Assembly (NCBI RefSeq): GCF_900112865.1
Contig: NZ_FONH01000003.1
Coordinates: 328,005-392,004 of the forward strand
Length of the DNA: 64,000 nt
Source: Dyella marensis
Lineage (GTDB): Bacteria > Pseudomonadota > Gammaproteobacteria > Xanthomonadales > Rhodanobacteraceae
Direction: 5' to 3'
Position 1 is the stretch's first letter. Every line of letters starts with the position of its first letter. Position numbers and translations under genes: made by a program. The notes beneath the pieces were generated by a model that ran no database searches, was not told the origin of the DNA, and saw only the letters and a program-made list of their open reading frames with translations. Shown here one piece after another: positions 8,611 to 34,878 of this stretch.

Positions 8611-8638
8611 TTGCATTCGCCGGATGCTGTGTTATCCA
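8611..8638 (+). promoter_or_regulatory. Putative sigma-70 promoter of the aroG leader
   Basis: TTGCAT (8611-8616) and TATCCA (8633-8638) are 16 bp apart. The expected transcription start would be at about 8645-8647, at or next to the leader-peptide ATG. The leader message would then be nearly leaderless, in line with the absence of a ribosome-binding site before 8647. Confidence 0.4.
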
Positions 8639-8646
8639 TACACGCC

Positions 8647-8727
8647 ATGACCTTCTCCTCCGCCCGCTATTACTTCTGGTTTTACGGCTATCCGATGCCG
8701 GCGGCGGAGGAAGAGGCGCGATCGTAA
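8647..8727 (+). CDS. Aromatic-rich leader peptide controlling aroG
   Basis: A 26-codon open frame with YYFWFYGY at residues 8-15: four Tyr, two Phe and one Trp in eight codons, plus Phe3. This composition is the hallmark of attenuation leader peptides such as PheL/TrpL. The ribosome would stall on these codons (8668-8691) when charged aromatic tRNAs are scarce. The frame ends 22 nt before a strong intrinsic terminator, and the DAHP synthase gene starts about 40 nt after that. There is no Shine-Dalgarno sequence, so initiation may be leaderless. The function is inferred from codon content and geometry. Confidence 0.8.
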   Translation: MTFSSARYYFWFYGYPMPAAEEEARS

Positions 8728-8781
8728 GCAGAACACGACCACTCTCCCGAAAAGCCGCCAGCCTCCACTGGCGGCTTTTTT
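8656..8781 (+). promoter_or_regulatory. Transcription attenuator of aroG
   Basis: Three mutually exclusive pairings are visible. 1:2 is TCCTCCGCC (8656-8664) with GGCGGAGGA (8703-8711), which encloses the aromatic codons. 2:3 is GGCGGC (8700-8705) with GCCGCC (8754-8759). 3:4 is the terminator stem GCCGCCAG/CTGGCGGC. Stalling at the Tyr/Phe/Trp codons would block strand 1 and let 2:3 form, so transcription reads through into aroG. This is the standard trp/phe attenuation logic. Confidence 0.7.
8750..8781 (+). terminator. Attenuator terminator before aroG
   Basis: Stem GCCGCCAG (8754-8761) / CTGGCGGC (8768-8775), six-base loop, six-T tract (8776-8781), with an A-run on the 5' side. It is a complete intrinsic terminator placed between the leader peptide and the aroG start. 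Confidence 0.9.
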
Positions 8782-8819
8782 CATGGCCGCCGCTGGAAAC
8801 CCCACCCAGGAACCGAGCC

Positions 8820-9917
8820 ATGACGCTGCCCCATACCGACGACCTGCGCATCCGCGCGATCACACCCCTGAGCACGCCCGCCGAGGTGATGCGCGACTGC
8901 CACGCAGGCGAGCTCGCGCTTGACACCGTGGCGCATGCGCGCGCCGCGGTGCACGACATCCTCGCCGGCCAGGACGACCGGCTGGTGGTAGTGATCGGGC
9001 CCTGCTCGATCCACGACACCGCCGCGGCGATGGAATATGCGCGGCGCCTGCTCGGCCAGCGCCGCCGCTTCGCCGATACGCTGGAAATCGTCATGCGCGT
9101 GTATTTCGAAAAGCCGCGCACCACCGTGGGCTGGAAGGGACTGATCAACGATCCGGACCTCGACGGCAGCTTCCGCATCGACAAGGGCCTGCGCCTCGCG
9201 CGCACCCTGTTGCGCGACATCAACCAGCTGGGCGTGCCGGCCGGTTGCGAATTCCTGGACATGATCACGCCGCAGTACATCGCCGACCTGGTGGCCTGGG
9301 GCGCGATCGGCGCGCGCACCACGGAAAGCCAGGTGCATCGCGAGCTGGCCTCGGGCCTGTCGTGCCCGGTGGGCTTCAAGAACGGCACCGACGGTAATGT
9401 AAAGATCGCGGTCGACGCGGTGCAGGCCGCGTCGCAGCCGCACCATTTCATGGCGGTGACCAAGGACGGCCGTACCGCCATCGCCAGCACCATGGGCAAC
9501 GAGGATTGCCATGTGATCCTGCGCGGCGGCAAGCAGCCCAACTACGACGCGGCCAGCGTGGATGCCGCCTGCGAAGCGATCGCGCGCGGCGGGCTTTCGC
9601 CGCGGCTGATGGTCGACGCCAGCCATGCCAACAGCAGCAAGCAGCCCGAGAACCAGCCGCTGGTGATCGACGACATCGCCCTGCAGCTGGAAGACGGCGA
9701 GCGCCGCATCATTGGCGTGATGGTGGAAAGCCATCTGCTCGGCGGCCGCCAGGAGCTGGTGCCGGAACAGTCGCTGCGCTACGGCCAGAGCATCACCGAC
9801 GGTTGCATCGACTGGAACGCTTCCGTCGGCGTGCTGGAACGCCTCGACGAGGCCGTGCGCCGCCGCCGCGCGGGTTCCGGCGTAGCGGGGCGGTTGCGGC
9901 AGGCCGTGGGTTGTTGA
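8820..9917 (+). CDS. aroG: 3-deoxy-7-phosphoheptulonate (DAHP) synthase, type I
   Basis: 365 residues. It condenses phosphoenolpyruvate and erythrose-4-phosphate in the first step of the shikimate pathway, in the cytoplasm. Family blocks are all present: VVVIGPCSIHD near residue 60, VMRVYFEKPRTTVGWKGLINDP (PEP site), GCEFLDMITPQYIADLVAWGAIGARTTESQVHRELASGLS, GFKNGTDG, and the C-terminal DASHANSSKQ and GVMVESHL. It belongs to the AroF/G/H class; which amino acid inhibits it cannot be read with certainty. Expression is probably set by attenuation through the upstream Tyr/Phe/Trp-rich leader. It is downstream of nothing else and appears monocistronic. Confidence 0.93.
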   Translation: MTLPHTDDLRIRAITPLSTPAEVMRDCHAGELALDTVAHARAAVHDILAGQDDRLVVVIGPCSIHDTAAAMEYARRLLGQRRRFADTLEIVMRVYFEKPRTTVGWKGLINDPDLDGSFRIDKGLRLARTLLRDINQLGVPAGCEFLDMITPQYIADLVAWGAIGARTTESQVHRELASGLSCPVGFKNGTDGNVKIAVDAVQAASQPHHFMAVTKDGRTAIASTMGNEDCHVILRGGKQPNYDAASVDAACEAIARGGLSPRLMVDASHANSSKQPENQPLVIDDIALQLEDGERRIIGVMVESHLLGGRQELVPEQSLRYGQSITDGCIDWNASVGVLERLDEAVRRRRAGSGVAGRLRQAVGC

Positions 9918-34458: not shown

Positions 34459-34613
34459 CACTGTGTTTGCCGGGGTCACCTGTTTTGTGACCCGATGCCG
34501 CTGATCAGCGATCCGCTACATCGCCTCACCCCTAGGGTTTTCCTTAGCAGCCAGTAAGTCGGCCTTTCCGCTGGTAGGGCTGAGTCTCATTAAAACCTTT
34601 AGGAGTGTTTCGT
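34459..34613 (+). promoter_or_regulatory. Long 5'UTR of the first cold-shock gene
   Basis: -10 box TATGAT (34448-34453), probable start at CACTGTG (34459), leader of about 155 nt. It folds locally: GGGTCAC (34473-34479) / GTGACCC (34487-34493), and an AAGTCGGCC...GGGCTGAGTCTC hairpin (34556-34588) that recurs in the other two csp leaders. The upstream part of the gap (34225-34440) shows nothing recognisable. The leader probably acts as a cold-sensing RNA, as known for cspA in E. coli; this is inferred. Confidence 0.6.
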
Positions 34614-34823
34614 ATGTCTGATCGTCAGATCGGTACCGTCAAGTGGTTCAACGACGCCAAGGGCTTCGGCTTCATCAGCCGTGACAACGGCCCGGATGTG
34701 TTCGTGCATTTCCGCGCCATCCAGGGCAACGGCTTCAAGAGCCTGGCCGAAGGCGACAAGGTCAGCTTCAAGGTGGTGCAGGGCCAGAAGGGCCTGCAGG
34801 CCGACGAAGTGCAGAAGGCCTGA
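34614..34823 (+). CDS. Cold-shock protein, copy 1
   Basis: 69 residues; a single cold-shock domain with RNP1 KGFGFI and RNP2 VFVHF. It binds single-stranded nucleic acid and melts RNA structure. The ATG at 34614 has an AGGAG site eight bases upstream; an ATG three codons earlier is less likely. It is first of a tandem triplet, each with its own promoter, leader and terminator. It has the sequence [10 protein letters not shown] rather than the SDGN start of the other two. Confidence 0.95.
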
Positions 34824-34848
34824 GCAGTCCTTCTTGATCGATTCAAAA

Positions 34849-34878
34849 AGGCCGGGCAGCAATGCCTGGCCTTTTTTT
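34849..34878 (+). terminator. Terminator of cold-shock gene 1
   Basis: Stem AGGCCGGGCA / TGCCTGGCCT (one G-U pair), GCAA loop, six-T tract. Confidence 0.9.

Follow-up and report, generated by a model that had tools for sequence, protein, structure and literature searches.

Attenuators of the pheL/trpL type combine a short leader ORF containing codons for the product of the pathway with a terminator placed before the biosynthetic gene, and in their leader RNA the pairing of segments 2 and 3 and that of segments 3 and 4 are mutually exclusive. The leader upstream of aroG in Dyella marensis resembles this type (Rfam Phe_leader RF01859 and its kin) in having product codons, exclusive 2:3 and 3:4 pairings and a terminator ahead of a biosynthetic gene, and it differs from it in its target, a DAHP synthase gene, in its codons, which cover Phe, Tyr and Trp, and in lacking a ribosome-binding site on an mRNA that is probably leaderless. 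Leaderless attenuation is described for Sinorhizobium meliloti, in which rnTrpL starts with the AUG of trpL (PMC10117765). This system (rnTrpL/peTrpL) thus shares with the aroG leader a leaderless start, predicted in the latter case, but it is a tryptophan attenuator that sits before trpE, and functions in trans are reported for it in S. meliloti.

Aromatic codons upstream of DAHP synthase or shikimate genes have also been described. The uORFC-13-1 motif before aroF in Acholeplasma carries an RBS, and its run of U codes for at least one Phe (PMC8632094), and two uORFs of shikimate genes contain Phe and Tyr codons (PMC6429828). Both resemble the aroG leader in their Phe, or Phe and Tyr, codons; uORFC-13-1 differs from it by its taxa and its RBS, and the passages describing these uORFs mention no Trp codon. 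Similarly, putative attenuators are listed before the aroF/tyrA operons of two Vibrio species (PMC1173090, Table 7), and an "Attenuator sensing tyr-tRNA" is given for Shewanella aroF (PMC2659441, Table 3). In these cases, as for the aroG leader, the gene under proposed attenuation encodes a class-I DAHP synthase, but they belong to other lineages with an operon layout, and the tables in question describe no tri-aromatic leader. The passages retrieved from the open PMC literature hold no account of an aromatic leader before aroG in the bacteria considered here, and an earlier listing in attenuator surveys or databases is possible.

The locus lies in a 64-kb stretch of D. marensis DNA, hereafter the window, and all its features are on the forward (+) strand. 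The leader peptide ORF (MTFSSARYYFWFYGYPMPAAEEEARS, 8647-8727), delineated from the sequence, shuffles and the family alignment, has 26 codons, and its putative regulatory codons, Tyr Tyr Phe Trp Phe Tyr Gly Tyr, are codons 8-15 (8668-8691; family alignment, n=49). A hairpin with a U tract (8749-8781) begins 21 nt after the stop of the ORF. It is followed by AGGA (8808-8811), which can be read off the sequence as the likely ribosome-binding site of aroG, and by aroG itself (8820-9917), which codes for a 365-aa class-I 3-deoxy-7-phosphoheptulonate (DAHP) synthase. The assignment to class I comes from TIGR00034 (524 bits against a cut-off of 173); with the AroG equivalog model the score is 534, under its cut-off of 568, and the aroG product is the sole match to this protein in its own genome. 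A first-pass annotation of this DNA had proposed the 26-codon ORF with YYFWFYGY at codons 8-15, the absence of a ribosome site, the terminator before aroG and three alternative pairings, and all of them were found where it had placed them. Judged from sequence, the aroG leader very probably controls transcription by ribosome-mediated attenuation, as pheL and trpL do, with Tyr, Phe and Trp as the amino acids sensed; the mRNA from which it is translated is probably leaderless. By score it is not a member of Phe_leader RF01859 (16.7 bits against a gathering score of 55, E 1.9), and Rfam searches at the gathering score and at a relaxed E-value returned no family at gathering score over the leader region. 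A cspA thermoregulator RNA is present elsewhere in the window (34533-34877, +; 80.8 bits, gathering 78).

The leader ORF, with seven aromatics per 10 codons, far exceeds what chance would give. When the 500-nt upstream region was dinucleotide-shuffled 1000 times, the maximum was five aromatics per 10 codons, a value reached once, and among all ORFs of 7-60 codons in the 64-kb window the leader is the sole one that scores above five. This anatomy is conserved in the Rhodanobacteraceae, for which 97 genomes were sampled. Class-I aroG, called at E <= 1e-40, is present in 49 of them, and a leader ORF with at least five aromatics per 10 codons precedes it in 49/49 (five in 3, six in 32 and seven in 14), while shuffled versions of these upstream regions scored five or more in 17/1960 cases (six once, five in 16). 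The start AT, the Trp codon TGG, GCGG, CCGCC, GGCGG and TTTT are invariant in the alignment of the 49 leaders, the Tyr and Phe codons swap synonyms with the residues kept (in the 44 of 49 that could be anchored), and all 53 gap runs in alignment columns 4-68 are multiples of three; the synonymous changes and the frame-keeping gaps point, indirectly, to translation of the ORF. Beyond the family, an order-wide sample of 81 genomes contained AroG in 15, 10 of them outside the family, and the leader is found in 10/10 of those. Near the end of the ORF (8716-8724), beyond segment 2, GCGCGATCG tends to persist in the family alignment, with CGA in 36/44 and TCG in 23/44 anchored leaders.

The terminator is formed by segment 3 (GAAAAGCCGCCAG, 8749-8761), its 5' arm, and by segment 4 with the U tract (CTGGCGGCTTTTTT, 8768-8781), its 3' arm, both defined by folding, covariation and alignment. 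It folds at -20.1 kcal/mol (8750-8785; z -5.6), and the fold of 8645-8781 as a whole consists of the 1:2 and 3:4 pairings (-55.1 kcal/mol, z -3.9). A consensus terminator scan did not list it and reported only another site, at 8613-8627; the absorption of most of the U run into the stem would account for this miss. In the family, the 3' arm and T run are present in 49/49 aroG upstream regions. A strict hairpin parser recovered the terminator in 42/49 members, and the remaining 7 show the GCCGCC/GGCGG arms by eye. The stem is paired in 92.0% of the cells of the family alignment, with a covariation score of 0.170 against 0.118 for shuffles, and pairs with two-sided changes do not exceed shuffles in the family (3 against 2.1). 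RNAalifold applied to the family alignment returned the terminator and a 3-pair local stem only. The proposal of a classical attenuator was open to a comparative test, namely loss of the aromatic codons or of the pairing in relatives, and this came out against loss, as the codons and the terminator arm with its T run are kept in 49/49 members. The same conservation bears on another reading, in which a fixed terminator would merely insulate aroG and the leader codons would be a by-product. The very strong stem (-20.1 kcal/mol) speaks for it, but aromatic content far above chance in 49/49 leaders, together with a conserved antiterminator strand, makes that reading scarcely credible.

The antiterminator strand is segment 2 (GGCGGCGGAGGA, 8700-8711), located by cross-clade comparison and folding. 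Its GGCGG aligned with relatives occupies 8703-8707, a second register, GGCGGC, occupies 8700-8705, and GCCGCC at 8754-8759 in segment 3 pairs with it, so that this pairing and the terminator are mutually exclusive. Across clades segment 2 is GGCGG or nearly so and faces CCGCC of the terminator. When nascent RNA was folded as it would stand with a ribosome stalled in the middle of the aromatic run and segment 4 still to be transcribed, five or more 2:3 pairs formed in 116/118 leaders, against 57.8 expected from shuffles, and in 41/42 representatives, against 18.6. The last aromatic codon lies 8-12 nt from the paired strand in 89/118 leaders and 5-19 nt in 115/118. The 118 rows are those left in the pairing table after 21/139 had been dropped, 13 for want of a leader and 8 at the hairpin parser (L164, L173 and L006 among them show the terminator by eye), and a few pairings in it are parser errors (e.g., L159, L162 and L026).

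Inside the family only one row departs from an otherwise invariant 2:3 core, and the flanks of the core covary no more than shuffles do (75.0% of cells paired vs 75.6%, score 0.025 vs 0.022); the claim of covariation therefore rests on the comparison across clades. Among 39 representatives, with 4/118 rows dropped and relatedness uncorrected, the four positions flanking the segment 2 core are Watson-Crick paired with segment 3 in 75 cells, against 55.9 when permuted, a value attained by 0/10000 permutations. Position by position, again uncorrected for relatedness, the observed and permuted counts are 30 vs 26.6, 26 vs 16.5, 17 vs 10.1 and 2 vs 2.7. The base before the core forms T-A in 16 and C-G in 10 cases, and the second base after the core, with its 2 pairings for 2.7 expected, shows no excess in this cross-clade set. 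GGCGG is read in codon phases 2, 0 and 1 in 26, 7 and 4 of 37 representatives (7/118 rows dropped from this test and from that of 1:2), giving peptides such as PLAE, TGG and RRD, which indicates that the RNA, not the peptide, is conserved at segment 2. To judge from the use of all three phases and from the covariation of the flanks with the terminator arm, the attenuator switch is maintained at the RNA level.

These data also speak to the nature of the stalling signal. The leader could encode an arrest peptide, the nascent aromatic chain stalling the ribosome on a small molecule and not through codon starvation, as is described for TnaC, which responds to free tryptophan (PMC8429421). The good conservation of FWFYGYP inside the family is what such a peptide would call for. 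Across clades, however, aromatic content is kept but order and spacing are not (FFTAYFYF, FYFYFFWHL, SYFWYFSY), and the residues past the aromatic run follow the RNA, whereas specific residues would be expected to be kept; an arrest peptide is accordingly regarded as very improbable, and attenuation by codon starvation as the preferred reading.

The third pairing of the attenuator would involve segment 1 (TCCTCCGCC, 8656-8664), which is partly conserved and can pair with 8703-8711, as it does in the minimum-energy fold. In the window this 1:2 pairing is stable (8655-8712; -25.9 kcal/mol, z -3.5). In the family 71.4% of its cells are paired, against 69.2% for shuffles, and its covariation score is 0.104 against 0.076 for shuffles, but 0.103 is obtained when the pairing is slid by +3. 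Over all clades it exceeds shuffles at p<=0.05 in 42/111 sequences and 7/37 representatives. In distant clades the 1:2 pairing of the first-pass annotation is mostly not above shuffles. Of the three pairings put forward by the first-pass annotation, 2:3 and 3:4 are thus conserved, while 1:2 in its exact form is so only in part. With the 1:2 protector strong in the window but conserved only in part, segment 1 may not be what holds segment 2 off after passage of the ribosome in many relatives.

The region preceding the leader ORF contains candidate promoter elements. An extended -10 element, TG-T-TATCCA, is found at 8630-8638, and TGnTA occurs 15-19 nt before the leader ATG (-15 to -19) in 49/49 family members, that is, 44 anchored ones, on which the promoter-column counts are based, and 5 others whose -10 was examined separately; the same motif arises by chance in 16/980 shuffled 9-nt windows. 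A -35-like element, TTGCAT (8611-8616), is contained in a TTTGCAT stretch, and T is found in 28, 40 and 28 of the 44 anchored members at columns -35 to -37, counted from the leader ATG. This element is below the threshold of the consensus scan, and a sigma-70 consensus scan listed no promoter, the candidate before the leader scoring below threshold. Given the placement of the extended -10, transcription is expected to start at about 8644-8647, at or next to the leader ATG, so that the leader mRNA is probably leaderless or nearly so. This would explain the lack of a ribosome site: a Shine-Dalgarno-like 4-mer precedes only 1/115 leaders over all clades. A comparison of Shine-Dalgarno content with that of aroG's own start was discarded as a control, because the start of the protein match is not always the start codon. 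The base before the leader ATG (8646), near the expected start, is C in 40/44 anchored family members.

The sequence data establish the anatomy of the leader, how widely it is kept and that its alternative structures can fold; from them we infer a leaderless start, translation of the leader, ribosome stalling and a response to aromatic amino acids. RNA polymerase would start at or a few nt from the leader ATG, and a ribosome would load on the 5' AUG. With charged tRNA-Tyr, tRNA-Phe and tRNA-Trp present, it would cross the aromatic codons and cover segment 2; with segment 2 so covered, or held by segment 1, the 3:4 hairpin would form and transcription would end near 8781. If any of the three were short, the ribosome would stall at codons 8-15, leaving free segment 2, which starts 8-11 nt past the last aromatic codon and could pair with segment 3 while segment 4 is still to be transcribed. 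Once 2:3 had formed, aroG would be transcribed, and the output in the D. marensis genome would be one class-I DAHP synthase beside those encoded by two class-II genes. The leader would probably exemplify attenuation on an mRNA that is leaderless, and a starvation reporter for aromatic amino acids could be built from it.

The terminated leader, of about 135 nt, might alternatively act mainly elsewhere, as a small RNA or a small protein gene, with the control of aroG secondary, by analogy with rnTrpL/peTrpL of S. meliloti; its small size, its terminator, its conserved peptide and its probably leaderless start do recall rnTrpL as described there. A search for the core-codon pattern in the 97 family genomes gave 37 matches in 35 genomes (6 for a reversed-pattern control), and 29 of the 30 matches inspected, the window's own included, are directly upstream of aroG; the other leader searches were anchored on aroG and thus blind to leaders elsewhere. 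Moreover, a role in trans alone would not require a conserved 2:3 pairing, and we consider a mainly trans-acting leader very improbable compared with an attenuator of aroG.

Which amino acids are sensed would depend on the lineage. Codons for Trp, Phe and Tyr are all present in 49/49 family leader cores, and over all clades Phe is found in 115/115 cores and Tyr in 114/115. Trp occurs in 10/10 cores of other members of the order, 0/12 of Oxalobacteraceae, 11/13 of Burkholderiaceae, 13/14 of alphaproteobacteria, 7/7 of Comamonadaceae-like bacteria and 4/10 of others, the clade groups having been assigned by hand with the aid of record titles and the tree. By its codons, Trp sensing is thus lineage-specific. 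The suggestion of a single leader sensing all three aromatics is therefore borne out, at the level of codons, for the family of D. marensis but does not extend to all relatives.

The physiological role first attributed to the leader, control of entry to the shikimate pathway, proved too broad. A class-II DAHP synthase is encoded in 97/97 sampled family genomes, and by two genes in that of D. marensis, while class-I aroG is found in 49/97. The presence of the two class-II genes implies that the leader would govern an accessory, class-I entry enzyme. In the 700 nt upstream of each class-II gene of the D. marensis genome there is no aromatic leader, the best frames having 3 and 2 aromatics in 10 codons. 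The second class-II gene (locus L179, contig C44:14000-24500) has two neighbours of note: a gene resembling PhzG (258.6 bits, cut-off 270) and an ORF that matches isochorismatase-like hydrolases weakly and below cut-off. They suggest that its surroundings form a phenazine cluster and that this class-II copy may be a phenazine-pathway enzyme.

The contrast drawn in the first-pass annotation with E. coli, in which TyrR and TrpR repress the DAHP synthase genes, holds in part. A TyrR-type domain (HTH_TypR, TIGR04381) was detected in the E. coli control and in 0/31 family genomes, that of D. marensis included, whereas a TrpR-family protein is encoded in 30/31; the TrpR-family model also matches in Bacillus subtilis, and this protein need not be TrpR itself. 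A regulon survey reports TrpR and TyrR to be absent from other proteobacterial classes (PMC5343134). For proteobacteria that lack TyrR, the leader is a specific and testable candidate for the means by which a DAHP synthase is regulated.

Among the AroG loci closest to that of D. marensis in named genomes (the best 80 of at least 592 matches), an aromatic leader and a terminator are present in 63/80, from Xanthomonas, Dyella, Rhodanobacter, Bordetella, Burkholderiaceae, Burkholderia, Oxalobacteraceae, Comamonadaceae, Bradyrhizobium, Mesorhizobium and Devosia. The 17/80 labelled as lacking the leader in this set include Methylotenera, Thauera, Azoarcus, Ferrovum, Dechloromonas and Rhodocyclus, as well as one locus (L071) whose 49 nt of upstream DNA are too little to judge; the leader labels of L112-L115, whose upstream regions are rows of the family leader table, were set by hand. 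In a class-wide sample of 143 genomes, class-I AroG was found in 106, and 27 of the 28 best new places (L180-L207) have no leader upstream, L202 alone having one; three others of these 28 regions reach a score of 5 without a terminator, which is the background level.

When the leader label (79 rows) is mapped onto a quick tree of 123 AroG proteins, 7 changes are required, against 36.1 for shuffled labels, and well-supported branches force at least 2 changes; near-copies cluster labels anyway, and the tree gives no direction of transfer. In this tree, the 14 alphaproteobacterial and 21/23 Lysobacterales rows form one group (support 95) in which the leader is present in 35/35, a grouping that fits the transfer of aroG together with its leader. 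The two may thus have moved as a unit between classes. A broader proposal, which we put forward tentatively and rate somewhat short of even, is that the leaderless tri-aromatic attenuator and aroG would make up a cassette that regulates itself and has passed between Lysobacterales, Burkholderiales and Alphaproteobacteria; in bacteria already equipped with a housekeeping class-II DAHP synthase it would supply an extra entry enzyme, made only upon shortage of Phe, Tyr or Trp, with the set of amino acids retuned in each lineage, as by the dropping of Trp in Oxalobacteraceae. The mechanism itself is classical, and the interest lies in this lineage-wise retuning and in the possible transfer, the same attenuator design being found in three groups of proteobacteria with a set of amino acids that changes by lineage.

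Two loci depart from the common pattern. In Candidatus Burkholderia humilis (L037), the best leader frame reaches within 34 nt of the start of the AroG match, unlike in its relatives, as if frame-shifted. In an Anaerolineae (Chloroflexota) bin (L069), labelled by rule as without leader, MSRYFSFFSWYGYF... precedes aroG together with a different GC-rich hairpin, and this may be an independent aromatic attenuator.
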